Shown: positions 9,027 through 33,500 of the stretch, piece by piece
Layout of the letters: every line of letters starts with the position of its first letter
Numbering within the stretch: the first letter of the stretch is position 1
Virus record (IMG/VR): IMGVR_UViG_3300036828_000412
Location: 1 to 45,619 of that record
From: a virus
Strand: one strand, 5' to 3'
DNA: 45,619 nt
Made by a program: the position numbers and the translations under genes
Notes under the pieces: model-generated
Told to the model about the DNA's origin: nothing
Seen by the model: only the letters and a program-made list of their open reading frames with translations
The model's database searches: none

Positions 9027-9203
9027 CTACTTGTTCAATTTCTTTAACGTCTGCGCAAACCTTGCCCGTTGCCCGAGCTTGCCGCCCTTACTCGCCGCGG
9101 CCGCTAATTTGGCTGCCGGGATCTTCTTGCCCACCGGCACACCGAGCTGCTTGTGCAGAGCGCCCGGATGCTTGATTGCTTTTTGAATGAAGTTCTTAGC
9201 CAT
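9027..9203 (-). CDS. Small basic phage protein (58 aa)
   Basis: 58 residues: MAKNFIQKAIKHPGALHK, then GVPVGKKIPAAKLAAAASKG and GGKLGQRARFAQTLKKLN. This highly basic, Ala/Lys/Gly-rich type, with KHPGALHKxLGVPxGKKIP, is a widespread short phage protein of unknown function, often close to head genes; the resemblance is from memory. The ATG at 9203 lies within the end of the preceding gene (stop at 9196-9198), with an AAAGGAGG ribosome site upstream, so the two are coupled. It is basic enough to bind nucleic acid, but nothing shows that directly. Confidence 0.75.
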   Translation of the reverse strand: MAKNFIQKAIKHPGALHKQLGVPVGKKIPAAKLAAAASKGGKLGQRARFAQTLKKLNK

Positions 9204-9480
9204 GTTGTATCCCTCCTTTCATTTCTGTTAGGGCGAGCTCCCGCGCCTCAATCAGTTTCTGTCTCACAAGTGCCACACCTTCGCCTGCGCCGATTGCCGC
9301 GATGCATGCGTTAGTTTCCTTAGTCCGCCGGCGCGCGCCTTCGATCGTTTCCCACTCCGCCTGGTCGATAATGGCGTGCACGCCGATCCACCACGGCTCA
9401 GTATCAGCCACCGCCAAGGCCCCGGTAAACAACGTGTCGTCTGCCGGCAAGCGTCTTGGCCTTATCCATTGCCATCTCAT
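9196..9480 (-). CDS. Small gene array, member 8: hypothetical (94 aa)
   Basis: 94 residues from the ATG at 9480 (MRWQWIRPRRLPADDTLFTG). It shares the junction sequence of the array (GGAGGGCAAGCC just before the ATG, ATGA overlap with member 7) but not the repeated protein modules. The body has ADTEPWWIGVHAIIDQAEWE, then GARRRTKETNACIAAIGAG, and a helical end (VRQKLIEARELALTEM). Not recognised; unlike the other members it ends in a different sequence, GGIQHG. It marks the downstream end of the array. Confidence 0.65.
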   Translation of the reverse strand: MRWQWIRPRRLPADDTLFTGALAVADTEPWWIGVHAIIDQAEWETIEGARRRTKETNACIAAIGAGEGVALVRQKLIEARELALTEMKGGIQHG

Positions 9481-9692
9481 GGCTTGCCCTCCAACGCCTC
9501 GGCCACCGCCCAAATCGTATTTTTGGCGTGTAGCGTTCTCTTTTGGCAACGCTCTAATCCCTTCACTGCAATCCTCAGCGCGGCGATGAGTGCTTTTCCT
9601 GTGTCTGCTGCTGGACATTGATCGGCCTTGCAGCAATCGAACCCGTAACCGATCTCATTCAGCTTGGTGTTGATTTTCTCGGTGTCGTTCAT
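9477..9692 (-). CDS. Small gene array, member 7 (71 aa, repeated module)
   Basis: 71 residues: MNDTEKINTKLNEIGYGF, a Cys-containing middle (DCCKADQCPAAD), then the shared C-terminal module AALRIAVKGLERCQ...HAKNTIWAVAEALEGKP. The final 50 codons are close to those of member 4 (10151-10339): 37 bases are identical at 9529-9565 and 10203-10239. The start overlaps the stop of member 6 by ATGA and its stop overlaps member 8 by ATGA. Function unknown; predicted mainly helical. Clearly part of a duplicated family. Confidence 0.75.
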   Translation of the reverse strand: MNDTEKINTKLNEIGYGFDCCKADQCPAADTGKALIAALRIAVKGLERCQKRTLHAKNTIWAVAEALEGKP

Positions 9693-9904
9693 GGCTTGCC
9701 CTCCAACGCTGCGGCAATTTCATGTTCCCAGTTTCTAGGTGTGGCACCAAGTTCTTCCAGTAGCTCCCTGCGTGATGCTAGTCCTTCCAGCGCAATTCGC
9801 AGCGCGGCGAGCGCACTGTTGCAAACGTGCGGCGAGTGGACAAGACGACGTGAGTTATCTTCTATCTCGTCCAGTCTGGCGTTGATCTTGTCGGTGTCGG
9901 TCAT
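9689..9904 (-). CDS. Small gene array, member 6 (71 aa, repeated module)
   Basis: 71 residues if started at the ATG at 9904, which matches the paralogues (MTDTDKINARLDEIE); an ATG at 9928 would add eight residues (MHTINGWE) and overlap the previous stop. The N-terminal module DTDKINARLDE and the C-terminal ALAALRIALEGL...AAALEGKP are shared with members 1, 3, 4 and 7; the middle differs (SRRELLEELGATPRNWEHE). Ends in the ATGA junction. Helical, function unknown. Confidence 0.7.
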   Translation of the reverse strand: MTDTDKINARLDEIEDNSRRLVHSPHVCNSALAALRIALEGLASRRELLEELGATPRNWEHEIAAALEGKP

Positions 9905-9914
9905 TTCCCATCCA

Positions 9915-10154
9915 TTAATTGTGTGCATTTTCCCTGCCGCAAGAGTCCGTAATCCAGCGTTGCATGTCCCCCGATATGTGTTGGATGTCGCTCGATGATC
10001 CGACGACAGTGAACGTCCTTACAATCCACCCGCGCGACTCGTGCCACCGGACGTTTGGACACCTTAACGCGACCAAACTCAGGTAATCCCTAACCTGCCC
10101 CCAAAGTCCAATCCCAACTTCACATTGAAATTCCATTTTCTCGGTGTCGCTCAC
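9915..10154 (-). CDS. Small gene array, member 5: hypothetical (79 aa)
   Basis: 79 residues from a GTG at 10154 that overlaps the stop of member 4 (GTGA). Only the first six residues (VSDTEK) belong to the family module; the rest, MEFQCEVGIGLWGQVRDYLS then NVRWHESRGWIVRTFTVVGS, is an unrelated alpha/beta sequence. It therefore looks like a foreign gene joined to the array through the shared start region. The same body in another frame gives no competing coding signal. Function unknown. Confidence 0.65.
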   Translation of the reverse strand: MSDTEKMEFQCEVGIGLWGQVRDYLSLVALRCPNVRWHESRGWIVRTFTVVGSSSDIQHISGDMQRWITDSCGRENAHN

Positions 10155-10339
10155 GGCTTGCCCTCCAACGCTTCTTGAATGGCCCAAATGGTGTTCTTGG
10201 CATGTAGCGTTCTCTTTTGGCAACGCTCTAATCCCTTCAGCGCAATCCTCAGCGCGGCATCGAGCATTTGTTCCCGTGGCGCGTGCGGATCGGCCTTCCA
10301 TTTGTCCAGCTTGACGTTGATCTTGTCGATGTCGTTCAT
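10151..10339 (-). CDS. Small gene array, member 4 (62 aa, repeated module)
   Basis: 62 residues: MNDIDKINVKLDKWKADPHA, PREQMLDAALRIALKGLERC, then the HAKNTIWAIQEALEGKP end. It is the most compact complete version of the module. Its N-terminal half is nearly the same as part of member 3 (LDKWKxxPxxPREQMLDAALRIAL) and its C-terminal half nearly the same as member 7, so it could be a recombinant between them or their source. ATGA junction upstream, GTGA downstream. Function unknown. Confidence 0.75.
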   Translation of the reverse strand: MNDIDKINVKLDKWKADPHAPREQMLDAALRIALKGLERCQKRTLHAKNTIWAIQEALEGKP

Positions 10340-10656
10340 GGCTTGCCCTCCAGCGCCTCGGCGATAGCGTGCAGTCCTTGATTAGCCCTTCTCTGGTAAG
10401 CATCTGGTGGCCTGCCGCTGCCGTCATCTGGATATGTGGCAGTGGCATACCATGCAAGCTTTTCCAGCGCAATCCTCAGCGCGGCGTCGAGCATTTGTTC
10501 TCGCGGCGATTGCGGTTCGGACTTCCACTTGTCCAGCTTGGCCTTGATCTTGTCGGTGTCGGTTATCGCTTTAACGAATTTCATTTTTACGGTGCGTGAC
10601 GGGCGCAAGGGAGTTTCCGGCTTCATGTCCCAATCTATCTTCTCAGTGTCGCTCAT
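10336..10656 (-). CDS. Small gene array, member 3 (106 aa, repeated module)
   Basis: 106 residues: an extra N-terminal piece (MSDTEKIDWDMKPETPLRPS) precedes a second, internal copy of the start module (ITDTDKIKAKLDKWKSEP), then DAALRIALEKLAWYATATYP and the family end IAEALEGKP. So the start module is present twice in one protein, suggesting a fusion of two array units. ATGA overlaps on both sides. Function unknown. Confidence 0.75.
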   Translation of the reverse strand: MSDTEKIDWDMKPETPLRPSRTVKMKFVKAITDTDKIKAKLDKWKSEPQSPREQMLDAALRIALEKLAWYATATYPDDGSGRPPDAYQRRANQGLHAIAEALEGKP

Positions 10657-10826
10657 GGCTTGCCCTCCAACGGGTCTGTGATACCGGGGTTATCCCGTAT
10701 GAAGCACAGTTCCTCTTCTGTTAGTATCCGATTCCATGCGCTCACATCGGTTTGGGTGCATGCTCCATCGACGAAGTGATACGTTGCGCACTTGTTACAT
10801 AGTTCGACTGGTTGTGGTTCGTTCAT
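10653..10826 (-). CDS. Small gene array, member 2: hypothetical (57 aa)
   Basis: 57 residues: MNEPQPVELCNKCATYHFVD, GACTQTDVSAWNRILTEEEL, ending DPLEGKP. A CxxC...C pattern (C10, C13, C23) suggests a small metal site. Only the last five residues and the start junction match the family; the body is unrelated. It begins by ATGA overlap with member 1 and ends by ATGA overlap with member 3. The short length hides it from simple gene calls, but both junctions and the codon pattern support it. Confidence 0.7.
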   Translation of the reverse strand: MNEPQPVELCNKCATYHFVDGACTQTDVSAWNRILTEEELCFIRDNPGITDPLEGKP

Positions 10827-11179
10827 GGCTTCACTCCAAGTTTCTCGGCAATGTCGCGCATAGTTGCCTTTGCGAAATGCGGAACAGCCTTCAGCGCAAT
10901 CCGCAGCGCGGCGATGAGTGCTGGAACATCGTTTAGCCCCAACATTGATATTAAAATTGGACTGCTTCTAAATTTGTCGGTCGTGGTATAGTTTTCCAGT
11001 ATCTCATCCAGCTTGGCGAGAATCTTGTCGGCGTCGGTCATTTGTTTTTGTAGCGGTTTTCCGGGTATCCTGAATCGTTTCCCGCATTTCACGCACTTCA
11101 GTTCATTATCCAGTTCGTGATTGCAGTATTTGGGAGCCTTGTTCTGGCTAGTTACACCGCATTTCTCTTTGTCATTCAT
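10823..11179 (-). CDS. Small gene array, member 1: zinc-ribbon plus repeated module (118 aa)
   Basis: 118 residues and first in the array, six bases after the portal stop. Residues about 19-36 form a possible zinc ribbon (CNHELDNELKCVKCGKRF). From residue 47 the family module appears (MTDADKILAKLDEILEN ... PALIAALRIALKAV ... DIAEKLGVKP), with a diverged ending GVKP instead of EGKP. The internal Met47 could be an alternative start. It may be the ancestral or least altered unit. Function unknown. Confidence 0.7.
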   Translation of the reverse strand: MNDKEKCGVTSQNKAPKYCNHELDNELKCVKCGKRFRIPGKPLQKQMTDADKILAKLDEILENYTTTDKFRSSPILISMLGLNDVPALIAALRIALKAVPHFAKATMRDIAEKLGVKP

Positions 11180-11185
11180 GGCTTG

Positions 11186-13549
11186 TTAGTAACCTCCTGC
11201 TCCGCCGCCGCCGCCCATGAGCGCCGACATAGCATCATTCCCCCCCATACCCACATTACCCGCCCCCATCATTGGCGGCGCGGCCACTTGCGGCGCGTTC
11301 TTGTTAAAGGTCTGGCTCACCTGCATCCGGCCGATCTGCGCGTTCTGTTGCTGCTGCAGTTGCCGCTGGTAATACGCGGCTCGGTTAAGGAGCACCTTTA
11401 TGATGTCGGGATTGCTCTGGATGATCTTCATCGTTGCAGGATTCTGCGTAATACTTTGTTGCTTCGCCTGCAACGTCTGCAATCGCAATTGGTAGTTGGC
11501 TCCCTGCGGCAGCGGCTGGTCCTGCCCGCTCCCGATGATGAGGTCCACGGCGCGTTGTTCGTCTTGCACTTCTGCCTGGGTGGCCGGTTGCTGATCCTGG
11601 ATCGCCATGTCCGCAAAACTGTAATCGATCGCTTCCGCGCCGGCTTTAAGCAGCGCCGTCTTATCCAGGATCCCCTGGGTGTCGAGCTGCGCCAGTTGGG
11701 CGAGGAACCCGAGCTTCTCTTTCAACCAATCACTGTCGATGTTGCGCAGGTCCACCGTGGCGGAGATCTCCCATTCGCCCTGGATCTCAGCGCGCGTGAT
11801 GTGGAACGGCCGGGTCAAGGGGCCCACCACAGCAGCGATGTCGGCGTCCGGTAGTAATTGCCGCATCAGTTTCATTGTCTGCTGCGTGGGCCCCTTCAGC
11901 TCCAGCAAAATGTCGTCCACGAGTTCTTCCCGTCGCAATTTCTTCAAGTCGGGGTCCACTTCAGCGCCGAAGATCCCGAAGTGATCGTCCACTCGTTTCT
12001 CTACTTCCTGGATGATCATGATCGAGACTTGGTCCCAGGGCGGCATCCGCATCCACTCGGCCTCATCAAACTTGCGCATCGGGATCACAACGCCCGGCTG
12101 AATGCTCTCCTTCATCTTCTGCACCTGATCGTAAGTGGTAAGCAGCGGCGGCCGCAACGTGAGCGCCGTGCGATCGCTCTGCGCGTCGTATTGCGCTTTG
12201 AGTTCCTGTTCCCAGGTGTAAGCGATCTCAGCGATCCCGCGGCTGGCCAAGATCGGACGGTCCTCGATCTCGAACCGGAGCGGGTGCACGCAAGCCTCGC
12301 CGTGATCGTATCCGGCTGGCTCGTGCTTGGCCGCGATATCCACGTCTATGTGGAACACCGTGCAGAACCGCGCAGGCACATCGCGGTCCTGCACCAGCGT
12401 GTAGAAATGATGCAGCTCGATGTCGTTATCCATGTTGCCTGGCCCTACTCCGGTAATGGCGGTACGTTCTGCCGCGGTCGTAAGCCGCCAGTCACCGGAG
12501 CTACTCGGTCCCCGAAATTCGAGCGCCGCTTCCACGAACGCCTCGCTGTAGCCGGCCGTTTCAACGCGGTCGCGCAACTCCGTCTCACTCACAAACTCGA
12601 TGATGTCGTAAAACGGCACCCTTTGGAGATCATCGGCATACGTGGGAAAGAGCACGTCCACCATCGGCCGGCGCGCCGTCCACCGCGGCCGGGATTCAAA
12701 CACGTAAGGCACCGGGATCGTGACCGTGCGAATCGCCCGCAAATCGTCCAGCTTCGCCCTGGCCGTTTTAAGGGTGAGATAATCGTGCGACACAGCCACC
12801 AGCATCTTTGCCAGGTCATCGGCGTAAGCCGGGTCCATGATCATTTCCTGCAAGTCCGTGATGTCCAAGTTCTCCCCGATCGGGATCTGCGAGTCCTGCC
12901 CGATAAATTGCGCCACTGCCGGCTCGTTCACAAACTCCTGTAACCCCATCACGTTAACGTCGATGTAATCCAGTTGCCGGGTCTGCTTCCAATCAACGTG
13001 CAGGATCGAAGCGCCGTAACCGTTCCGCCACGAGATCGCGAGCCGCGCCTCGCGGTGTAGCTCCGCTTGCATGTGGGAAAACAGCATCCAGTTAAGGAGC
13101 GTCGTCGCCTGTTGCGATTCGCGGATGGTCACCGCCGGCCGGGTAGACTTAGCCTGCACCTTCATGTTACGCAGCGCAAAGGTGGCGATCGTGCGATGTT
13201 GCCCGATCACTTTCTCCACCATGCGCACCCGCGTATCGCACGCCCCGGGCCACGGCCACGGCTGGATCCCGGCCTCCGGGCAACCCCACTTACGGGCATC
13301 CACCGTCTGGTAATCCCAGCGCGAATACCACCAATCGCGTGCACACAGATTGCGCGTGTAATAATCCCTCGCCAGGGATGACCCTTGCGCATCGAAGATC
13401 GCAGTCTTAAACGTGGTCAGGTCCGGCGTCTCAGTCGCCTTTTCCAACGCTGCCGGGTCATAACTGCTGCCGCCGCCAAATGCCGAGCCACCGCCGCGCG
13501 GGTAGCCTTGAGGGTAATGCCCTCGAACGTTAACTAGTTGTTGTGCCAT
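11186..13549 (-). CDS. Portal protein (podovirus type, 787 aa)
   Basis: 787 residues, ATG at 13549 with a GAGG site. It shows the long portal pattern of podoviruses: an N-terminal FKTAIFDAQGSSLARDYYTR region, WDYQTVDARK, a helical core with HREARLAISWRNGYGASILH, a wing (DYIDVNVMGLQEF), the stem region (ADIAAVVGPLTRPFHITRAE then DWLKEKLGFLAQLAQLD) and a Gln-rich, then Gly/Met-rich tail (QRQLQQQQNAQIG; AMSALMGGGGGAGG). The portal forms the dodecameric DNA channel at one capsid vertex and binds the terminase. Position directly after TerL and one small gene supports the call. Family assignment is by overall pattern. Confidence 0.75.
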   Translation of the reverse strand: MAQQLVNVRGHYPQGYPRGGGSAFGGGSSYDPAALEKATETPDLTTFKTAIFDAQGSSLARDYYTRNLCARDWWYSRWDYQTVDARKWGCPEAGIQPWPWPGACDTRVRMVEKVIGQHRTIATFALRNMKVQAKSTRPAVTIRESQQATTLLNWMLFSHMQAELHREARLAISWRNGYGASILHVDWKQTRQLDYIDVNVMGLQEFVNEPAVAQFIGQDSQIPIGENLDITDLQEMIMDPAYADDLAKMLVAVSHDYLTLKTARAKLDDLRAIRTVTIPVPYVFESRPRWTARRPMVDVLFPTYADDLQRVPFYDIIEFVSETELRDRVETAGYSEAFVEAALEFRGPSSSGDWRLTTAAERTAITGVGPGNMDNDIELHHFYTLVQDRDVPARFCTVFHIDVDIAAKHEPAGYDHGEACVHPLRFEIEDRPILASRGIAEIAYTWEQELKAQYDAQSDRTALTLRPPLLTTYDQVQKMKESIQPGVVIPMRKFDEAEWMRMPPWDQVSIMIIQEVEKRVDDHFGIFGAEVDPDLKKLRREELVDDILLELKGPTQQTMKLMRQLLPDADIAAVVGPLTRPFHITRAEIQGEWEISATVDLRNIDSDWLKEKLGFLAQLAQLDTQGILDKTALLKAGAEAIDYSFADMAIQDQQPATQAEVQDEQRAVDLIIGSGQDQPLPQGANYQLRLQTLQAKQQSITQNPATMKIIQSNPDIIKVLLNRAAYYQRQLQQQQNAQIGRMQVSQTFNKNAPQVAAPPMMGAGNVGMGGNDAMSALMGGGGGAGGY

Positions 13550-18758: not shown

Positions 18759-19785
18759 GATTAACGAGATCTCGCGCGCGCCGATCAATTTGTCGCTGTA
18801 CATCAATTGGCACCGAATCAAAACGCGGCGGCCACGTCGTATCAGGAAAATCTTCCTGGCACACCTTCACCCGTTCTGGGGTCCACCCATCGCCCTCCGG
18901 TTCATGTTCCTCGGACCCGTTAAGGTTAACGCGCACGCTCTTCCACTTGTCGATCTCGGAAGAAAACTCGCGAAGAAGAAGTAGAGCACTGTGCTTCGGC
19001 TTACTCAGTTGCTCGCCGTCCACGATCGCCCAACCCTCCACGTCGCGCGGAAGTGTGTAGGCCCAGGAGAGCAGAGCCCGGTCCTCGCGCGAGATCGGGA
19101 CGAGCTCGGTGAGCAGGTTCATCTCTTCGTAGTTCCAAGCTCTTTGGCGGCCAAACAAGGAGTTGACCCAGTTTTTTAATTTCTCAAAATTTTGGTCAAT
19201 AAGGCTCTCATTGTGCAAATCTGTCTCAGTCCCCCCTTGGGGGACGACAGGGGGTTCTTTCATTCCTTCTTTCTTTCTTTCATTGACATCGTCAATTTCA
19301 CTGCCACTGACGTTTTCCGCTGCACTGTGAGTGACGTTTTCGGACGTCACTACAAGTGCGGGCGGCATGTCATCGAGACTGCCGTTTTCAGACGTCGCTT
19401 GAAGTGACGTTACTTCCGGCGCGCCTTCGATCAGATTGATCCAGCCGACTTGTCGAGACGAAAGTACGGCGAATGCGCGGCGTACAGTTGATGCTGGTAA
19501 GCGCCACATATGCCCGAGCTGCTCGCTGCCTAAGCGCCACCCGTTCCGAGTGCCGTCGCTGGTAACGTAGCCGTGCCGCGGTTTGCCCTGGCGGGAGCAA
19601 AGCTTCCCCAGCCGATGCCATACGCCGAAGATGGATGCGGAGTCGCAATGATTCTCGATTACTGTGGCGGCCGGACCATCGTCGTTTCGGAAGCAAACGA
19701 AAGTGCAACTGTCGACGTGTCGCGACCGGTTGTTCTCGAAGAGTCGATCCCAATCTGCGATCTGATAGAGTGGCAGGTTCGTCAT
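18751..19785 (-). CDS. Replication initiator / replisome organiser-like protein (344 aa)
   Basis: 344 residues from the ATG at 19785 (ATGA overlap with the previous gene). Residues about 45-125 look like the winged helix found at the start of phage replisome organisers and DnaD/O-like proteins (SIFGVWHRLGKLCSRQGKPR; LGSEQLGHMWRLPASTVRRA; FAVLSSRQVGWINLI). A disordered Ser/Glu-rich linker follows, and the C-terminal half has Trp-rich helices (NWVNSLFGRQRAWNYEEMNL). Directly upstream of the DnaB helicase, as expected for an origin-binding or helicase-loading protein. No origin iterons are obvious within the gene. The family is inferred. Confidence 0.6.
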   Translation of the reverse strand: MTNLPLYQIADWDRLFENNRSRHVDSCTFVCFRNDDGPAATVIENHCDSASIFGVWHRLGKLCSRQGKPRHGYVTSDGTRNGWRLGSEQLGHMWRLPASTVRRAFAVLSSRQVGWINLIEGAPEVTSLQATSENGSLDDMPPALVVTSENVTHSAAENVSGSEIDDVNERKKEGMKEPPVVPQGGTETDLHNESLIDQNFEKLKNWVNSLFGRQRAWNYEEMNLLTELVPISREDRALLSWAYTLPRDVEGWAIVDGEQLSKPKHSALLLLREFSSEIDKWKSVRVNLNGSEEHEPEGDGWTPERVKVCQEDFPDTTWPPRFDSVPIDVQRQIDRRARDLVNHE

Positions 19786-20021
19786 GGCTTGAATGGTTTG
19801 CAGAAGCCGCGGCTGAAAGGGGCCAGGACACGCCCACAAATCGGGCAAGGCGGTCCCTCGCCAAAGACAGTCCGCACGATCACGTTGCCGCGCTGGATGC
19901 GCGTGACCGGCAGAAGATTCCCCGCCCCCGAAGGACTAGGGGCGGGGATTTTGTCCCTCTCTGCCTTTGCAGCATGGGGCTCCACGCTGTCCGGCGAGAA
20001 TGGTAAAAGCTCGGGCATCAT
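19782..20021 (-). CDS. Small Cys-containing hypothetical protein (79 aa)
   Basis: 79 residues from the ATG at 20021 (ATGA overlap with the previous gene). It ends with EGPPCPICGRVLAPFSRGFC, a CxxC followed by a third Cys, perhaps a degenerate zinc knuckle. The N-terminal half is Pro/Ala-rich. Overlaps the initiator-like gene by ATGA. Function unknown; the codon pattern is consistent with its neighbours. Confidence 0.55.
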   Translation of the reverse strand: MMPELLPFSPDSVEPHAAKAERDKIPAPSPSGAGNLLPVTRIQRGNVIVRTVFGEGPPCPICGRVLAPFSRGFCKPFKP

Positions 20022-22575: not shown

Positions 22576-23856
22576 ATGAGCAAACACAGAAAATTACAGG
22601 TTCCAGTCAAATGCAGTAAACGGCGTTTCTTCCTGCAGCTAAACCGCAAGCGAGGCAACGCCTACCACATCGTGTTCCGGCCGCACCCAGACGTCACCGC
22701 GGAGCTGGGCATCCAGCGCGTGTCGCAGACTACCGGCCAGGGCATCGGATTCGAAACGCCGGCAATCGCCGCGGCGCAAGCGATCATCGAGCGATACTTC
22801 CCCGATCCCGCGGGCAACATCGCCGCGATCGCGGAAGCCGAGGCCAAGAAAACTCACCGTGAAATCGCCACGCTCGGGGACATCACCAAGATCTACCTGA
22901 CGCAAGCTCGCACCGTGCGAGGCAAGGAAAACATCAAAGTCACCACGCTGCAGGCGAATGTCTGCGCGCTCGCAAGGATCGTGACCTGGCACCTAAAGAC
23001 CAAGGACGCAGAAGCCTGGAAAGGCGTGCGCTCCGATCGCGTGCTCACGGCCAAGGCGTTCGAGAGCTGGATGCAGGCGCTCGTCGCCGGCGTCCCGCAG
23101 CAGGAACTACGCATGGACCGCGCGAAGCAAAGCGCGAACAGCAACCTCAACCAGGCGCGCTCGATCTTCGCGAAAGATTACATGCCGCTCTACGCGGATC
23201 TGAAGTTGCCGGATCTCGCCGGTCTGCTAGCTCTCAAGAACTACCCGATCAAAACCGACAGGACATTTAAAGCAATCCCGCCGGCGGTGCTCAACACAAT
23301 GGCCAACGAGATCAACGCCATGCGCACTGAAAATCCCGGGTGGTATCTCGCCTTCCAGTTCCACCGTTGGCTCGGGATGCGTAGCGACGAAGTCTTGAGC
23401 GCGCGCAAGCTTTGGATCCGCGACTCAGCCGAGGGCCCTGAGATAGCGATCGAGAAATACGCCTACGAAGACGGCACGGAATTCACGCCGAAAGGCATCG
23501 AAGGCCAGCTCTTGATCAGTCCAGAATTGCTGGCCGACATCCGCGAGCTGAGTCCTGCGCGTCACGCGATGGACACACTCGTGCCGATCACGCAGCGCTC
23601 CTACAAAGCGTTTTCCAAGTGGGTTGGCAAACACCTCGGCGCGCGTCGTAGCGTGAAGACCACGCACGCTTTGCGCGCCCAGGCGATCTCTGAAGTCTTC
23701 GAGCAGAACCACGGCAACGTGAAGAGGACCCTCAAATTCAGCCGGCACAAAGACATCGAGACGCTAGCCAAACATTACCTGGCCGATGTCGGCGGCCGGC
23801 CGATGCTCAGACGCGAGATCCACGTCTTGGCGGATCCTCAGACTAAGGCAGCATAA
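22576..23856 (+). CDS. int: Tyrosine recombinase / phage integrase (426 aa)
   Basis: 426 residues, ATG at 22576. N-terminal part with arm- and core-binding helical regions; the catalytic domain spans about 230-405. Catalytic residues visible: Arg269 in GMRSDE, His364 and Arg367 in HALR, His391 in SRHKD and the nucleophile Tyr401 in KHYL. A Lys in the beta region (EKYAYEDG) fits the fifth position. The enzyme would join phage attP to the bacterial attB. A tRNA-Pro-like gene lies 307 bases downstream, which fits the known preference of such integrases for tRNA genes. The sequence upstream of its ATG has no strong ribosome site (AGAAAG 11 bases away). Confidence 0.92.
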   Translation: MSKHRKLQVPVKCSKRRFFLQLNRKRGNAYHIVFRPHPDVTAELGIQRVSQTTGQGIGFETPAIAAAQAIIERYFPDPAGNIAAIAEAEAKKTHREIATLGDITKIYLTQARTVRGKENIKVTTLQANVCALARIVTWHLKTKDAEAWKGVRSDRVLTAKAFESWMQALVAGVPQQELRMDRAKQSANSNLNQARSIFAKDYMPLYADLKLPDLAGLLALKNYPIKTDRTFKAIPPAVLNTMANEINAMRTENPGWYLAFQFHRWLGMRSDEVLSARKLWIRDSAEGPEIAIEKYAYEDGTEFTPKGIEGQLLISPELLADIRELSPARHAMDTLVPITQRSYKAFSKWVGKHLGARRSVKTTHALRAQAISEVFEQNHGNVKRTLKFSRHKDIETLAKHYLADVGGRPMLRREIHVLADPQTKAA

Positions 23857-23872
23857 ACCGATCCAAATTAAA

Positions 23873-24100
23873 TCAGCGAGAGCGCGCCTTACGAGCAATT
23901 CGAAGGCGCGTTTTCGTTATTGCCTTGAGGTATTTCGCAAGATCTGGATCCTGCCGGCTCAACCTGAGCGACTCGCTAAATACCGCGTCCCGAATCACCG
24001 CGCTCCGGGTCCTGCGCAGATACTGAGCAAGCAAAGCCACGACCACGACGAATTCCTCGTCAACTCGGATCTCAATCTTCTTGTTCCTCTTCCCATCCAT
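23873..24100 (-). CDS. RHH-type regulator convergent with the integrase (75 aa)
   Basis: 75 residues from the ATG at 24100; an alternative GTG at 24130 would add ten residues and come within 33 bases of the tRNA. KKIEIRVDEEFVVVVALLAQ is the strand and first helix, RRTRSAVIRDAVFSESLRL the second helix of an RHH fold; a basic Arg/Lys-rich tail follows. It lies between integrase and tRNA on the opposite strand. Its second helix resembles that of the protein at 21616-21837. RHH proteins are used as excisionase-like or repressor proteins in some mobile elements, so control of integration or excision is possible. Confidence 0.65.
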   Translation of the reverse strand: MDGKRNKKIEIRVDEEFVVVVALLAQYLRRTRSAVIRDAVFSESLRLSRQDPDLAKYLKAITKTRLRIARKARSR

Positions 24101-24162
24101 GCCGCGAGAAAAGACTCGAACTGCGTGCACATATGGGCAAGAGAAATCGCGTCCTTACAATG

Positions 24163-24235
24163 TCGGGGCGGCGGGACTCGAACCCGCGGCCTCACGGAGC
24201 CCAACCGTGCGCGCTACCAACTGCGCCACGCCCCG
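24163..24235 (-). tRNA. tRNA-Pro(GGG)-like gene, candidate attachment site
   Basis: A complete 73-base cloverleaf: seven-pair acceptor CGGGGCG/CGCCCCG with C1-G72 and A73 (the bacterial tRNA-Pro hallmark), four-pair D stem GCGC/GCGC with AGTTGGTA loop, anticodon stem CACGG/CCGTG with loop TTGGGCT, five-base variable loop, T stem GCGGG/CCCGC with TTCGAGT loop. The anticodon at positions 34-36 is GGG. Position 37 is C, whereas a purine, normally G, is expected for tRNA-Pro; so decoding ability is doubtful. CCA is not encoded. It stands 307 bases from the integrase stop, on the opposite strand. Most likely it is, or contains, the attP core copied from a host tRNA-Pro. Confidence 0.8.
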
Positions 24236-24466
24236 TCTCATTTTGCCCGCCGCCACGAGAGTCCCCGATTCTCATATTGCTCGGTGGTCGCTCTGTTTGT
24301 GCTCTCTCGCGCTTCGCCGCCGTCATCCTGCCCTCGGCCTTTCGGCGTTGGGCTGTCGGCTTGTTGCGGATCGGCCAGCACAGGCGCGGCAAGCAAAATG
24401 GTTTACAGTTTGCCTAACGCCAGGAGCTCCATCAAGGTTAAATTTGATGGTAACGGCCGATTTCGT

Positions 24467-24522
24467 GCTGCTCTTTTTGCTGCTCTTTTTATACGAATGC
24501 TGCTCTTTTTGCTGCTCTTTTT
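24467..24522. repeat. Two head-to-tail pairs of a 12-mer (GCTGCTCTTTTT)
   Basis: Copies at 24467-24478, 24479-24490, then after an 8-base gap 24499-24510 and 24511-24522, all exact. A third pair is listed at 24671-24694. The constant pairing and spacing suggests a protein that binds two adjacent 12-base sites, such as integrase arm sites. Confidence 0.85.
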
Positions 24523-24565
24523 GGGTTTCCACTTATTCACGCTTTACACATACGCATACACACCG

Positions 24566-24659
24566 TTTACCTAGGTAAATCGCCACTTTTGACCACACTT
24601 TGCATGCTTTTCCCAGGTAACGGATCGACTGAATGGGGTTCAACAGTTTCACCTGGGAA
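24566..24659. promoter_or_regulatory. Cluster of three related ACCTRGG palindromic sites
   Basis: A perfect 14-base palindrome TTTACCTAGGTAAA (24566-24579), then TTCCCAGGT (24610-24618) and its inverse ACCTGGGAA (24651-24659). Aligned, they share TTnCC-AGGTrA. The last two also form a 9-base inverted repeat with a 32-base loop. They look like binding sites for a dimeric regulator or excisionase acting at the integration region. Confidence 0.5.
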
Positions 24660-24670
24660 GGATATCTCAT

Positions 24671-24694
24671 GCTGCTCTTTTTGCTGCTCTTTCT
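24671..24694. repeat. Third pair of the 12-mer repeat
   Basis: GCTGCTCTTTTT at 24671-24682 followed directly by GCTGCTCTTTCT (one change) at 24683-24694. Same orientation as the four copies at 24467-24522. Confidence 0.8.
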
Positions 24695-24764
24695 GCCAGG
24701 CGCTTTAGTTTCCTCGCATGGCGTTCCTTCGATTTTCGGATCGCTCGTGCTGCGCATCTTTGCT

Positions 24765-24772
24765 CGAAATCA
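24765..24772. repeat. Target-site duplication, left copy (CGAAATCA)
   Basis: The eight bases CGAAATCA directly precede the left terminal repeat of the insertion sequence and recur directly after the right terminal repeat at 26640-26647. An 8-bp duplication is within the usual range for IS1-type elements. Confidence 0.85.
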
Positions 24773-24819
24773 GGTAGTGGGCTACTTTGAAAATTTTTCA
24801 CAAAAAGGAACGATTTTTG

Positions 24820-24847
24820 TTGACATACCGAACTAGATGGGTATTAT
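24820..24847 (+). promoter_or_regulatory. Sigma-70-type promoter of the IS, -10 box six bases before an ATG
   Basis: TTGACA (24820-24825), 16-base spacer, TATTAT (24842-24847), then six bases and the ATG at 24854. The geometry is the same as at 21848-21882. A transcript starting at the usual distance would begin at or next to the start codon, with no ribosome site. Confidence 0.65.
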
Positions 24848-24853
24848 GACTGT

Positions 24854-25531
24854 ATGAACGAAAACAAATCAACACAGTTACTAAAACAGATTGCAGACTT
24901 TGCTCAACGGCAATGCGATTGCAATTCGGACGAGGCTATTTTGTGGGCGCAGGTTGTGCAAATGGCCAAAGGTATAACCAAATTCGGCGACGAGCCGAAT
25001 CCTTTTGAAGCCATTCCTGAAGGCATCTATTCCGAGATTGGGGGAGGTTCTTGGGAGGCCAATCATCTACTCAAAACTATGCAGTCTCAGACAATCGACG
25101 CTTTGATGAGTTTTGCCAGATTTGTAGAGCCTTGGGTGTCCGATGCTGCATGTAATGACAAATTCGGGTTCGAGAAATCACGAGAATTATATCAAGAATG
25201 CCTGAGGATTCGGCCACTGATTAAGGCTGCTAGACAAGGGGAAACTGACGCGGAGACGGACTTGACGGGGCAGGAACCCGTTGCACAGGACACGCTTTGC
25301 TCGAAGTGCGGCCTGCCACTGTCGCAGCACGAAAAAGGATATGGAGAATGCAAGCAAGAAAGGGCACTCTCCGATGAAGAAATCACATTGGTTACGGGCG
25401 CTTTAGACTCCCTTGGGGTTGCGCTTGCAGATCACGGCCACCAGTGGACTGACGGTGAGAGGGCAATATACGAGGAAGCAATTAAAAGTCTGTGGAATGG
25501 ATTTAACCGCCTGCCTAGAACGCAAAAATGA
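24854..25531 (+). CDS. IS passenger protein with zinc-knuckle-like motif (225 aa)
   Basis: 225 residues, ATG at 24854. Helical and acidic throughout (STQLLKQIADFAQRQCDCNS; TIDALMSFARFVEPWVSDAA), with a possible zinc site at Cys149, Cys152 and Cys166 (CSKCGLPLSQHEKGYGEC) and a final Trp-rich helix. Not recognised. Its codon use and AT content differ from the surrounding phage genes. The last codons overlap the transposase start (ATGA), so the two are translated from one message; the product could be a transposition accessory or target-selection factor, or plain cargo. Confidence 0.7.
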   Translation: MNENKSTQLLKQIADFAQRQCDCNSDEAILWAQVVQMAKGITKFGDEPNPFEAIPEGIYSEIGGGSWEANHLLKTMQSQTIDALMSFARFVEPWVSDAACNDKFGFEKSRELYQECLRIRPLIKAARQGETDAETDLTGQEPVAQDTLCSKCGLPLSQHEKGYGECKQERALSDEEITLVTGALDSLGVALADHGHQWTDGERAIYEEAIKSLWNGFNRLPRTQK

Positions 25532-26373
25532 ACCGGCTTACCATAAAAGAAAGGACAAGCGCGATTGCGTGTCTCGTAGAGGGTAATTCCCAACGCGCAA
25601 CGTGCCGTATGACGGGCCTCGCCAAGAAAACTGTGTCGAGACTAGCAGTGGAGCTTGGCGAGGCATGTGAGCGATTCGCAGATAATTCCATGCGCGACTT
25701 GCCATGCACGCGCATCCAGTGTGACGAGATTTGGAGCTTTTGCTATGCAAAGGCGAAGAACGTTCCGCAACATTTGAAGGGCAGCGGAGCGGGCGACGTT
25801 TGGACATGGGTAGCGATTGACCCGGACACGAAACTTATTCCCGCTTGGTATGTCGGAGATCGAACGGCGCAGAGTGCTTACCCGTTCATGCGCTCAGTGG
25901 CGAAGCGGCTAAAGAACCGCGTTCAGTTATCAACAGACGGACACCGCGCTTACCTCATAGCCGTCAAAGCCGCATTCCATCTGCAAGAGATCGACTTCGG
26001 GATGGTCCGCAAGATTTACGGAGAAAACACGTTGGAGGGCAAATACAGTCCCGGCGAGTGCATTGGCACAGAGCGCACGGTCATTAGTGGGAAGATCACG
26101 AAAAGCGAAATCTGCACAAGCCATGCTGAGCGCCAGAATCTCACGATGCGTATGCAAATGCGGCGGTTTACACGCCTCACAAACGCCTTCTCGAAAAAGA
26201 TCGAGAATCATCGACTCGCGTGCGCTCTGCACTTCGTTCATTACAACTTCTGCCGAATCCATTCGAGCTTGCGAATAACTCCGGCTATGGCTGCCGGTCT
26301 CACCGACCACGTTTGGGAGATTTCGGAGTTGGTAGAGCTTTTAGAGCAACAGGAGGTCGCCCTTGCCGCGTGA
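25528..26373 (+). CDS. IS1-family-like DDE transposase (281 aa)
   Basis: 281 residues. An N-terminal HTH (about 17-45: EGNSQRATCRMTGLAKKTVS) is followed by a DDE core: Asp66 in CDEIWSF, Asp137 in STDGHRAY and Glu201 in HAERQNLT. The ERQNLTMRMQMRRFTRLTNA then FSKKIENH block matches the conserved C-terminal part of IS1 transposases (ERxNLTLRxRxxRLxRKTxxFSKS). A single frame without the programmed frameshift of classical IS1 corresponds to the longer-ORF branches of that family. It would cut and join the 18-bp ends noted above. Start by ATGA coupling to the passenger gene. Confidence 0.88.
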   Translation: MNRLTIKERTSAIACLVEGNSQRATCRMTGLAKKTVSRLAVELGEACERFADNSMRDLPCTRIQCDEIWSFCYAKAKNVPQHLKGSGAGDVWTWVAIDPDTKLIPAWYVGDRTAQSAYPFMRSVAKRLKNRVQLSTDGHRAYLIAVKAAFHLQEIDFGMVRKIYGENTLEGKYSPGECIGTERTVISGKITKSEICTSHAERQNLTMRMQMRRFTRLTNAFSKKIENHRLACALHFVHYNFCRIHSSLRITPAMAAGLTDHVWEISELVELLEQQEVALAA

Positions 26374-27143: not shown

Positions 27144-27542
27144 ATGCAACACAAAACGAAACTGTTCGCTCTCCTGGTCCTGATTACTACATTCCATGCC
27201 GCAGCCGCGGAGGAGCAGGAACAACTGAGGCGGGCGTGCCAGAACACGCTGCCCCGTAATGGCATTACGTGGTTGGCTTTGGTTTCTAGTAATCAGGGTG
27301 TCGTCTTCGCAGTGTCCTGGGCTGCCGGCTGGCTGGACGCAAACCAGAAGAAGAACTTCTACGCGGGGAATCCGGTACGCTTGGTCGTGGAACTCACCCA
27401 GTTCTATGTGAACGATCGCGGCAATCTGCCGGTCAAGATGGAAGACGCCGCGCTCTTTGTCGCCGAATACCACGGCATGACTCCGGACGCAGCCGCTCTC
27501 CGAGTGGAACACCTTCGTAGAGATGCCAGCGCCGCGCATTAG
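27144..27542 (+). CDS. Exported hypothetical protein, lone rightward cargo gene (132 aa)
   Basis: 132 residues from the ATG at 27144. A signal peptide is clear: MQHKTKLFALLVLITTFHAAAAE with cleavage after the Ala run. The mature part (about 110 residues) has GNPVRLVVELTQFYVNDRGN, EDAALFVAEYHGMTPDAAAL, and Cys residue pairing is absent except one near residue 30. It is the only rightward gene among leftward late genes; its stop overlaps the stop of the giant gene tail to tail. TTGACA at 27108-27113 with a weak ATTGGT -10 (27132-27137) lies immediately before the ATG. Independent orientation, own promoter and secretion signal are the marks of a lysogenic-conversion (moron) gene. Function unknown. 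Confidence 0.65.
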   Translation: MQHKTKLFALLVLITTFHAAAAEEQEQLRRACQNTLPRNGITWLALVSSNQGVVFAVSWAAGWLDANQKKNFYAGNPVRLVVELTQFYVNDRGNLPVKMEDAALFVAEYHGMTPDAAALRVEHLRRDASAAH

Positions 27543-30500
27543 GGAGCCAGGGAAGGCAGTTTCATGGTTTGCGGTGGCGGCCACACCGGCGTGCCGGCCG
27601 GACGCGCTAGCGGGCCGCTCACGGGCTGGTTTAAACCGAGCCTTCGGGCGTTCTGTATTGCGGCCAGTTCAAAGAGATCCGGCTTACCGACTAATTTCGG
27701 GCCTTTGAGTGAGAGGCCCACCGACACGGGCGATTGCCCGAAAAGGTCCACCTTCGCCGCGTTGTTGGTGGCGTTGAGGATCTGGCCCATCATGTTTTGT
27801 TTGACCGTGAGAGGCTCGGCTGCGAAGGCCGGCGCGGCCAGTAAACGCGCGATCATTGGCGGGGCGACCTGCCCCACGTAACGCTGGTAAGCCGAGAGCT
27901 GTTCGTTAGTGAGCTGGACCTGTTTGCCGTTAATCATTAGTGTGGCCGGCACGGCCCTGGCCAATTGCTCGGAGCTGCCGGTCGCCTCATACATGCGGGT
28001 CATTTCCTTTAGCCCGGGCTCGGTTTTAAATTTGCTTACCATGGCAGGGTTAAAGAAAATGTTGATCAAGGAATTGTTCCCATAGTTGTAGCGTTGGACC
28101 GCGTCGCCAAAGACGTCGTATTTGGGCGGGTATTTCTGACTTAAACCTGGGAGTTGCGAGAGCAACCGGTTCGCTTCCTGCTCCACGAATGTGCCGCCGC
28201 GCGTCTCGCGTACCTGGTTGTCCATGTATTGCCCGGTCTGCCGGACCAGGCTCGGGATAAAGTTGCCTGGCACGTTCGCGGCGAGCTCGACTGGGATCTT
28301 CCACGGCTGTTCGACCGCGGTCTGGAGCGCTTGCTGCAGGTTTTGCAGCATCGGCGAATCGGCCATGGATCCTACGCCGGCACCGAGAGCGCGCAGTGCC
28401 GCGTTGCTGGTGATTTTGCCGCGCTTGAGATCGATCTCCTGTTTGAGTTCGCTGTGCGCCAGGTCCGCACCCATCGCGATCGGGAATGCAACGGGCTCGA
28501 GCCAGTTGTAGTTGATAATCATGTCGCCATCGGCTGGGCCGGTTGATTTCTGCCACCAGTTTCCGCTCATCGCGCGCCGGCGCAGCTCGCTCATGTTAAT
28601 GCGGTATGCGCCCCAGCCGCTGGCTTTGCGCATGGCTTCGATGTCCCGGTTCTCATCCGGCGCGCCGGTCAGGACCCCGATCTTGGCGAGCTGGTAGCCT
28701 GCGAGTGCCAGGGAACCTGTGCCCAGGGCGGCTTTCACCACGGCCTCGCCGGCCGCGCGGCCGTCGAAACTCTCGCCCGTGACAAAGGGCCGCAAGATTT
28801 CGATGCCGGCTTTACCGAGGCCAAATGGCGTCCAGGTCGCGCCCTCGCTCAGGATCGCCGCTGGCACTTTAGCGAATGGGATGAGCGCTGTGCCCACGCC
28901 ATACTTGCCTTTTGTAATTGCCGTGCTGCCGGTGACCAAGTTGAGGCCATTGCGCACGGCCAGGAGCGCTTTGTAGAGCGCTGTGTCGTTGTAAAAGATC
29001 GCCTTGTTAGCGTCGAGGTGCGCGTTAGAAATCATCTCCGCGGTCGGCGTGGCGACGCGAGCCTCGGTCATTTGCCGGGCCAAGCTGGAATGGAACCCGG
29101 CGCTCCAGAACCCGTAAGGCACAGTATTATGCAGGAGCGTGACCGCGTCCTCGAACAACCGGCCGAAGCGCGAGCTGAAAGTGTGCGTGCTGCGGGTGAT
29201 GTCGCTCGCCTCGAACATGCCGCGTGTGGTGAGGCTCGACAGGTCGATCAACGTCTCCATGCCTTCTTTGAAGCTCGGCACCGCGGTGAGCCCGCGTAGC
29301 CGCGCATCTGAGTAGCCGGCCGCGAAAGCGCGGCCTGGCGCGAGGAGCCCACTGGCGATCCCATCGAGTTGCGCGGCGGTGATCGTCTTTCTACCCATGA
29401 ACACGTTGCCGACGTCCCGCGGCACATTGAGGACCGCGTCCGCAGTCATCTGCCCAAACATTCGCAGCGCGTTTGAGATCCCGATGCGGAGCGGGAGCCG
29501 GCCGTGCAGGATCATGGAGATGACCGCAGTGGCGCGCACCTTGTCCCAGAGATCGTGCGGGACCAGGCCGTAGACGGTGTCCATCATCTCTGCGCCGCGT
29601 TTAAGTTTGAGTAGCGGGTTATCTGCCGGCACAGCTTCCCACACTTTCTGCGCGGCCTGGATCGCACGGACGTTTTCCCGCGTGAGCTGCGGGATCCCGA
29701 AAGCTTTGATGAGCGCGGTGCGCAGCTCGTCCGGCGTGAGCACGCCGGCCTGCTGTTTCTTGAGGAGATTGGCCAGGTCAAGAGCGCCCAAGCGTTCGCC
29801 GCCCACGCCCACGCGCGCGAGCCGGTTGATCATCAAATGCATCTCGGCATCGCGCAGCGGACCGGGGCGCATCGCCCCCAGTTTCGCGCGCATCTGGTCG
29901 AACTCGGCCAGACGCTCGCCCATCCTGGGATTTTTCTGAAGCACGCCAGCGACCAATTTTTGTGCGGTATTGATGAGCCCTTGTGGTGAAGTTTTGCTGA
30001 TGGTGGAGATGAACCACATCGCCTGGGCCGGGCCGGTCAACTTGGCGGCCATGGCGTCGCGCACTTCGGCCGCTTCATCGTAACGGCCAAATTTATCGAG
30101 GCGCAGCGCGAGCTCTTGGCCGAAGGCCATGGTGTCCGCATCGGTCTTGCGTGAAGCAGTAAAGACATCTTTCGCCTTGTCTAGACCCATGGCATCGATC
30201 TTGCCGTTGGCGTTATCGGTAACGGCCTTGAGCGTGGTGGGCGTGTAATAACTTTCCACGAAGAATTTGACCGGGGGCGACACCTCGGTCATCCGCTTTA
30301 CCGTGGCGATGTGGCCACGCATTTTCTGTGGGTCATTCGCGTCCGCCTCGAGCTCGTCCTGGGTCGGCAGCTTGGGGCCGGCAGCGGGTGCTGGCGGTCC
30401 GGCACTTGCAACTATTGGTGCCGCACCTGGAACTGCCGGCGCTTCCGCCGGAGCTGTTAGTGCCTCCGCTGGAGGTGTTGGCTCAGGCGCTTGTGCCGGC

Positions 30501-33500
30501 TCAGGTGCGGCGGCCCGTTCGATCCGGTTTCCGCTCCTATCAACGAAGAGATCCTGCGGATCTCGTTTGTCTTGCGCTCTGGCGAGTGCACGAACCTTAT
30601 CGTAGAAATCTCTGTCGCCAGCCTGTGGTAGATCTCCTGGGTATTCGCGCCGCCCTTGAGTTGCAGCTCTGAATTGACTAGCCCTTACAAAAGCGTCTTT
30701 GTCTGCACGGTCTTGAAATATAACGGTTACTGGATCGTGCGCGCCACGCTGAATTATAATGCGGCGCTCTGGCGGGGCTTCGGCGGCCTCTCGCGGTCCA
30801 CCGACGGCCCCCACGCCGCCGCCGATGTCGCGCGTCTCGCGCAGCTTGCCGAAGGCCTGCCCTGCAGCTTCAGTCTTGATCTCTTCGTCGCGCGAGCCGC
30901 GCGGCCCGCCTGTTTCGCCGATCCCGCCGCCGACGTCGCGCGTCTCACGAAGCTTTAATCCGCCAGGGGCGGATCCGGGTTCAACTGCAGCTCCCGCGGC
31001 ACCAGGGACTCTTCCTCCCCGTAGGGCGGGTTCTGGAATCCCGCCTCCTTGAGGTAGTTCTGCCGGTTTACCGGAAGTCCCTTCCGGCGGAGCTCCTGCA
31101 CTACCGAATCGTCCTCCAGCGTAGTAGTCCGGCGCGGGGACTTTGCCTCCGTGGAAGTCTCTGGCGATGTGTTCTGTGCCGTCATATGCTTGCTCCTCGG
31201 TGATCTTACCACGTGCGGCATCGGTCCACAAGCCTTGAATTACTTCCGACAATACCGGTCCCAGGACGTCTGGCGACTTGAGTCCGCGCTGATACGCCCA
31301 CACCAATGCCTGGAATTCTTTCGGCTCCATTCCCACTTCTTTTGCAGCTTGCAACGTCGCCTCGTGAACGATCGAATAGTAGCCAGCAAACTCGTCGTCC
31401 GGGCCTGCTCGGCTGGCTGCGAACACGTCTTTAACCAGGGGGTTACTTGACGGGAGCGAGTTACCCCAGGCGGCGGAAGTGTGATGCGTGTCAACAACGA
31501 CGTGATCGCTCGGATGAAACGCCAGCAATTTCGACATGTAATAGTTGGCGACTTTCGGCGTGCTCAGAATCTCCTCCGGCGTCCGCTGTTCAAGCGCGGC
31601 GTCGATCCCGCTCTGGATCGGTTTAAATGTGGTCCAGGCGAAAGGCATGTCAGCGCCCGTGCTAGTTTTTACTGTGTCGCCCAGCGTTCCATCCGGCCTA
31701 ACGACACGAAGCATCCTGTCGGGATGATAAACCTCATCGAACGCCCGCAGCCATTTTGCTTGCATCTCGCCCTTCGCCGGCAGTTCAGAGAACTTCTTTC
31801 CCATCAGGGCGTCGACGTCCGCCGGGTCATAAAGATGCACCAACTCTCCTGCAGAGTTTTTGCCCATCTTGTTGCGCGCCCAGTCTGCCATCCTCTCGTC
31901 GAAGCGGTCCCCGGTGTTATCGCGCAAGATCTTCAAAATGCGCCGCGTTGCTTCAAAGGAATTATCTGGCGATGTGTTCGGGCTCTCGGCTGATTCTATC
32001 AGCATGACCGTCTCAGGCTTCTTCTGGAATTCGTCGGCGATCTCGTGAGCTTGGATGTTGTAACCCTCGTATTGCTTGGCTGCGTAACGGCGTGCCCAGG
32101 GTTCCTTCAATGCTAACCGGGCTGTTTTGACCAGGTTCTTCTTGAGGAAAGCGATGCCGTTTTTAATCTGCTTAACATCGTTGGTGCTTCGATACGGTTT
32201 AGGAGCGTTCGTGCGGAATCGGTCCGCGTTTACTGGTCGCGAACGGTGGTGATCCAGGACTCGCTGGTAGTTACTCTTTGCTATGTCATGGCCCGCGCGC
32301 GCAGCGGTTTCTTTTGCACGCGCCTTGGCCGCTTCCATCCTAGCTTTCTGTTCTTTCGCCGTCGGAGCTCGGCGCGGCGCGCCCGTCTCGCCGATCGCGC
32401 CACTAACACCTGCGCGTCCTGGCTCACCTCCGGCTAACATGCGTAAAGTCTGCGCAGCAGTCGGCAGCTTCTGTTTCATGCTCTCGATCTCGGCTGTGCG
32501 CTCGGCTCGTAGCTGTGCCTTGGCATCGGCCGGCGACAACTTCATCACAGCCGGTTCCGTGTAGCCGCGCCGGATCAGCTCCGCCTGGTCGGCCGTAGCG
32601 CCTCTTAGCTGTTGGGCCTCATTCGCCCGCTTATCCAGGTCCTGCCAGAATTCTGCGACTTTCCTGTAAGGCTCCGCGTATGCCTCGTGCTCGAAGGCGG
32701 AGCGACCGCGCGGCATGATGGCGGCTTGGAGCAATCCTAGCCCAAGCGCGGACCCGCCCACGCCTTGTGCTAAGGGCTCGCCAGTCGCGGTGTTACTGGC
32801 GATCCGGTTCGCTGTGCCTAACGTTGCGCCTTCGCCAAATTGCGCGGCCCGGTTCAATAGGAGCCGGCTCACGCCTTTCGCGCCGATTTTGTCAATCAAG
32901 TATTTGTCGGCCGCGTTTCGGAGCGGCCCCGGCAAGGCAGCCCACACGAGTGATTCTGCAGCCCCTCCAGCCTCGGCCTGGGCAAACGTTTTCTGGGCAG
33001 CTTGGCCAGGATCCATGCCTGCATCCACCATGGCCTGGTATTGGTTCGTGATGCGGTCGCCAGTGCTTTGAAGGTTGATCGCGGCCGCTGCAGTGATCGG
33101 TGCAAATGGTCCGGTAGCGATGCCGGCAGCCGCGACCGGGGCCATGGATCCCGTGGCTCTGGCAGTTTGCACGAGGAGGTTACTTTCAAACCGCGGATCC
33201 ACCGGGAACTGTTGCTCGGCGAATTGGGACAGTTGCCTGGGGGCACGTAGAAGCGGGTCTTGAGCAGCTTGGAGAAATTGCATTCTCTGCGCGAGATCCT
33301 GCGGTGAGCTCAATGCCGGGGTATATAAGGCCTTGCCTAGGACACCGGTGGCCATGTTAGCCGTTCCCGTTAACCCGGATTGGACCAGGGCATGAGCCGC
33401 GGCGTCGAAAGCGTCCCCCTGTGGGGGCGATGGTGGCATGATGAGCGGCACTTGCGGGATCCCGCCAAGTGGCGGCGGCAAAGATTGCATTAGCGTCGTG

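Follow-up and report, generated by a model that had tools for sequence, protein, structure and literature searches.

How a virus can gain small genes without breaking the operon that receives them is, to our knowledge, an open question, and the boundary sequences that have been proposed for phage gene gain are seldom visible. A locus that bears on this question is found in IMG/VR record IMGVR_UViG_3300036828_000412 of an uncultured virus, the whole of which (45,619 nucleotides, nt) was analysed and is termed the window. Seven small genes (g8 to g2, 11179 to 9477 on the minus strand) lie here between a portal-like gene and a further gene, g1, and most of them are joined by overlapping stop and start codons within a repeated sequence that contains a Shine-Dalgarno (SD) motif. 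We consider it probable that these genes are an accessory array which occupies a variable slot and has grown by unequal recombination, the tail of one gene carrying the SD of the next and the junction being a recombination boundary. The boundary in this array is visible and is the translation start itself; a hybrid gene has been mapped alongside it, and relatives have an empty site. From such an array one could read how phages gain small genes and rearrange them without giving up their expression.

The order on the minus strand, 5' to 3', is portal, g8, g7, g6, g5, g4, g3, g2, g1 (ending at 9196) and g0. The slot and its borders comprise the following genes:

Portal-like gene, 11186..13549, minus strand: left border of the slot and search anchor for relatives.
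g8, 10823..11179, minus strand: a short start module (MNDKEK) is followed by a stretch rich in Cys (CNHELDNELKCVKCGKRF) and by one full module, MTDADKILAKLDE..AALRIAL..IAEKLGVKP.
g7, 10653..10826, minus strand: ORFan body, sharing only the end DPLEGKP.
g6, 10336..10656, minus strand: start module twice (outer MSDTEKID... with ATG, inner ITDTDKIKAKL with ATA as start codon), core and end module.
g5, 10151..10339, minus strand: mosaic, with a g6-like N half, a g2-like C half and a breakpoint in the AALRIAL core.
g4, 9915..10154, minus strand: starts with GTG and has the start module VSDTEK but no end module; the body is an ORFan.
g3, 9689..9904, minus strand: full module; translation may also start farther upstream, at 9928.
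g2, 9477..9692, minus strand: full module; the protein is predicted to fold as a three-helix bundle (pLDDT 80).
g1, 9196..9480, minus strand: TGALAV..EPWW protein, a conserved neighbour following the portal in relatives; no module gene.

An earlier note made from the sequence had counted eight array genes; seven of these stand, and the eighth, g1, is not array-born: relatives have conserved it beside their portal gene. The same note had given start and end modules to five genes, which are g2, g3, g5, g6 and g8, although the end of g8 is IAEKLGVKP and not ALEGKP. It had rightly described two members with junction residues only (g4, VSDTEK..., and g7, ...DPLEGKP) and one with the start module twice (g6); in g8 the start module is nearly doubled (MNDKEK... 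and MTDADKILAKL). The GC content of the array is 0.52, against 0.58-0.60 in its neighbours.

Comparison with related phages, which the earlier note had put forward as a check, was made with contigs whose portals are 62-82% identical to that of the window, giving five distinct comparisons; these contigs are homologous, so that a between-contig null is not usable for this set. In L011 the stop codon of the portal gene and the start codon of g1 overlap in an ATGA, and in L012 the g1 homologue directly follows the portal. A single 43-residue open reading frame (ORF) separates portal and g1 in L008, four unrelated small genes occupy the slot in L006, and a methyltransferase and one further gene occupy it in L007. 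No module gene was found in the five portal relatives, six-frame profile search included. An insertion that is absent or different between conserved genes of relatives is what defines an accessory slot, and this was the pattern observed. Since the slot is empty or otherwise filled in relatives, the simplest account of the array is that it was inserted into a variable slot whose borders are the stop of the portal gene and the native start of g1, and, for the same reason, a dispensable accessory (moron-like) role of the array proteins is most likely. The overlaps of the array suggest expression within the surrounding operon.

Direct repeats of more than 100 bases, as reported in the earlier note, link members of the array and meet in g5:

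C-half repeat of g2, 9476..9584, minus strand: 109 nt, 87% identical to 10150-10258 in g5.
N-half repeat of g6, 10465..10571, minus strand: 107 nt, 87% identical to 10238-10344 in g5.

Comparison of g5 with these two genes at 64 informative sites gave 23 of 29 sites in favour of g6 to the left of the breakpoint and 33 of 35 in favour of g2 to its right (permutation p about 5e-6). The breakpoint falls at GCCGCGCTGAGGATTGC, where g2, g5 and g6 are identical, and the alignment thus shows that g5 is a g6/g2 hybrid with its join in the conserved AALRIAL core. Differences between the C halves of g2 and g5 are mostly synonymous (pN 0.06 against pS 0.36), which fits translated genes under constraint.

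Five ATGA overlaps (g8/g7, g7/g6, g6/g5, g3/g2 and g2/g1) and one GTGA overlap (g5/g4) bear out the statement that the small genes are mostly joined in this manner. Such overlaps are missing at portal/g8, where the portal TAA is followed by CAAGCC and then ATGA, at g4/g3, and at g1/g0, which overlap by 8 nt. The repeated junction sequence is present at the following places:

CAAGCCATGA, 11176..11185, minus strand: between the portal stop and g8; CAAGCC is untranslated in this copy.
Junction repeat g7/g6, TTGGAGGGCAAGCCATGA, 10653..10670, minus strand.
Junction repeat g6/g5, 10336..10353, minus strand: one mismatch.
Junction repeat g5/g4 (GTGA), 10151..10168, minus strand.
Junction repeat g3/g2, 9689..9706, minus strand.
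Junction repeat g2/g1, 9477..9494, minus strand: abuts the native g1 start.

The fivefold repetition claimed for the junction DNA is confirmed, with TTGGAGGGCAAGCC directly before RTGA at five junctions, one of them mismatched, against 0.07 expected. When up to three mismatches are allowed, TTGGAGGGCAAGCCRTGA occurs five times in the array, one copy having a mismatch, and has one weak match elsewhere; 0.07 would be expected per window, and the count was reached in none of 100 shuffles. The window has seven copies of CAAGCCRTGA (0.27 expected), six of which lie inside the array, indicating that the junction is local to it. At g3/g2, g5/g4 and g7/g6 the repeats are two-sided, with unrelated bodies beyond: 36-39 nt align with 90-95% identity (blastn E 1e-9 to 2e-12), and the similarity continues for approximately 18-20 nt beyond the start codon, covering the N-terminal codons of genes that are not related. 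As CAAGCC is untranslated at portal/g8, protein constraint is no explanation for that copy. A search for RNA hairpins at the six junctions gave none above shuffled sequences. A further, lone copy of CAAGCCATGA is present outside the array at 19782-19791 (minus strand), and overlaps the end (..KPFKP) of an upstream frame.

Profile searches of IMG/VR located the module family elsewhere in only five virus contigs (G001, G002, G008, G009 and L193), each with one or two module copies in runs of small coupled genes, and the family was not found in INPHARED phages or GTDB genomes. All five contigs come from IMG/VR samples 3300036791 and 3300036785, suggesting a narrow ecological range. Two types of tail DNA can be distinguished. 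The first, GCGTTGGAGGGCAAGCC, encodes LEGKP and is present in g2, g3, g5, g6 (with one change) and G001; the second, GAGAAACTTGGAGTGAAGCC, encodes LGVKP and is present in g8 and, with small changes, in both G002 genes. One of the latter, G002_a, has a middle of the g2/g5 type (67-73% nucleotide identity) and an LGVKP tail like that of its own neighbour (90%) and of g8 (87%). Both DNA types therefore stand on differently combined bodies, by which the alignments show that tails have been reassorted among viruses. Despite their different residues both tails keep a GGAG SD before the overlap, which points to a function of the DNA. Over all members, tail similarity is 0.68 within genomes and 0.57 between genomes, and, the excess being modest, general concerted evolution is not claimed.

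These observations can be joined into one course of events. A lineage-specific family of small three-helix proteins would have been inserted between the portal and g1, and the array would have grown by duplication and by unequal recombination among the copies. The coding tail of end-module genes (..LEGKP or ..LGVKP) would serve as SD and spacer for the next gene, which begins at the overlapping ATGA or GTGA, and the array genes may therefore be translationally coupled. The repeated translation-start cassette could act as a 36-39-bp homology boundary for body swaps, at which new ORFs (g4, g7 and the Cys-rich stretch of g8) may have been inserted without loss of expression. The minimum homology for Red beta is approximately 30 bp (PMC3945230), and the junction repeats are longer than this. 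The recombination-driven cassette array proposed in the earlier note is upheld in part, at the level of sequence, as regards the g5 mosaic, the variable slot, the repeated SD-bearing junction of 36-39 nt and the reassorted tails; that the junction itself drives insertion is a further step that we infer. Several points weigh against the proposal. Among those ORFs of the window whose proteins were scanned, which is not all of them, no recombinase was recognised. The sole mapped crossover is in the module core and not at a junction, and the standard junction is missing at g4/g3 and g8/g7. A common SD and an ATGA overlap would by themselves favour alike junctions. Copy-number change in the array is presumed, and so is the direction of change.

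The rival that survives best, which we nevertheless regard as rather unlikely, holds that ordinary tandem duplication together with selection on translation starts keeps the junctions alike, and that the ORFans arrived by illegitimate recombination unrelated to the junction. GGAGGGCAAGCCATGA is present at no fewer than 119 places in IMG/VR, and 73 of the 85 examined copies close an open frame of more than 40 codons, mostly of unrelated proteins; the same SD-spacer-ATGA form is also found in the unrelated phages L134 and L104, suggesting convergence on a good start. However, a one-base control (CACGCC) occurs at 36 places against at least 119, and is thus at least three times rarer in a comparison that leaves codon bias in, and CAAGCC directly before ATGA was seen at none of 81 SD-bearing ATGA junctions in contigs not selected for it. 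The continuation of the repeats past the start into unrelated genes, the untranslated copy at portal/g8 and the divergence of g2 and g5 at synonymous positions elsewhere also argue against selection on starts as the sole cause. Far less probable is the view that the odd members (g4, g7 and the outer region of g6) arose by decay or frame-shift of module copies and were not captured as ORFs. They do retain residues of the start or end module, and the inner start module of g6 has ATA for ATG, but a six-frame profile search at full sensitivity detected no trace of the module in either g4 or g7, both of which have kept an intact open frame. That the array is a metagenome assembly artefact of collapsed or misjoined repeats, as might be suspected of a repetitive array in an uncultured virus record, is very improbable, because the copies differ by approximately 13%, frames and overlaps are intact array-wide and the same architecture is present in other contigs.

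Regulatory repeats that flank small exchangeable genes are promoter-terminator elements between genes, in contrast to the array repeat, which is a translation start inside coding sequence with no supported hairpin. The Start-Associated Sequence (SAS) of Cluster K mycobacteriophages is an SD-containing 13-bp repeat with a GGGATAGGAGCCC-like consensus before the starts of different gene families; it lies mostly in intergenic gaps of more than 50 bp, spread over the non-structural half of the genome, and about half of the copies have extended inverted repeats (PMC3203893). SAS-like repeats are also present in Microbacterium Cluster EF phages (PMC7302621). Like SAS, the array repeat recurs within one genome at ribosome-binding sites of genes from several families. 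It differs in sequence from the 13-bp consensus, and, unlike SAS, is coding, overlaps stop and start, runs into both genes and is confined to the array; the intergenic position and inverted repeats of SAS have no counterpart among these overlapping genes. In the boundary-sequence model of phage mosaicism, short conserved homology at gene borders is the site of crossover (PMC3029335). The array likewise has border homology (36-39 nt) with unrelated sequence beyond, and differs in that its boundaries can be seen and fall on the translation start. SAS is thus the nearest described feature and boundary-sequence mosaicism the nearest process, and the array joins both in coding sequence.

The design is not unique to this phage, although the earlier note knew of no described system exactly like it. 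The window stands out as the extreme case in a set of 250 contigs that together have 3263 overlapping junctions; many of the contigs were chosen by junction pattern, so that the frequency is no population estimate. In L134 (5800-7760) seven consecutive small genes with unrelated bodies are joined by nearly identical GGAGGCCAAGCCATGAGCGA-like junctions, and L104 has six junctions of this kind; the two have genes in common and are counted as one group. L104 also has an 81-residue gene (1693-1938) that is an N/C hybrid of two L134 genes: it matches the first 43 residues of one at 67% identity and the last 48 of the other at 60%, and its breakpoint lies in a coiled-coil-like stretch. In L102 (415-2853) an IDAHLA-type tail with the SD of the next gene is reused by four genes, one tail pair being identical over 20 nt. 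These contigs resemble the array in having repeated SD-bearing ATGA junctions between unrelated small genes, and differ from it in a common tract of only approximately 20 nt, in less amplification and in that no protein homology was detected. A degenerate search for the junction plus start had L231 and L232 as its sole matches, which share only an N-terminal motif and whose genes look unrelated. Tentatively, SD-bearing translation-start cassettes that double as recombination boundaries might be a general strategy across several unrelated phage groups; if so, small genes inserted, duplicated or hybridised via the genome's own junction would stay expressed at once.

Neither Pfam nor PHROGs profiles gave a significant match to any array gene, fold searches with the predicted structure of the module protein, which has three helices, gave none either, and no homologues of g4 and g7 were found in IMG/VR. 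Upstream of the array on the minus strand are a terminase-like and the portal-like gene, both without a Pfam or PHROGs match, and "portal" is a putative name for 11186..13549, given on weak similarity to annotated portals and on position. Following g1 are the small basic g0, a scaffold gene (PHROG head scaffolding) and an SU10-type major capsid gene. The earlier note had placed the system in the head-gene operon, a setting that does not hold for the family as a whole: the module genes of G001, G002 and G009 have helicase, nuclease-like and primase-like genes among their neighbours, and these non-structural neighbourhoods make the head-operon location of the array incidental.

Elsewhere in the window, an integrase-like gene (weak PHROG match), a tRNA-Pro (ggg) at 24162-24235 and a transposase-like gene (IS1/IS240 domains) cluster at 22576-26370, which is possibly an integration region. 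A single ORF of 2164 residues occupies 27539-34033.
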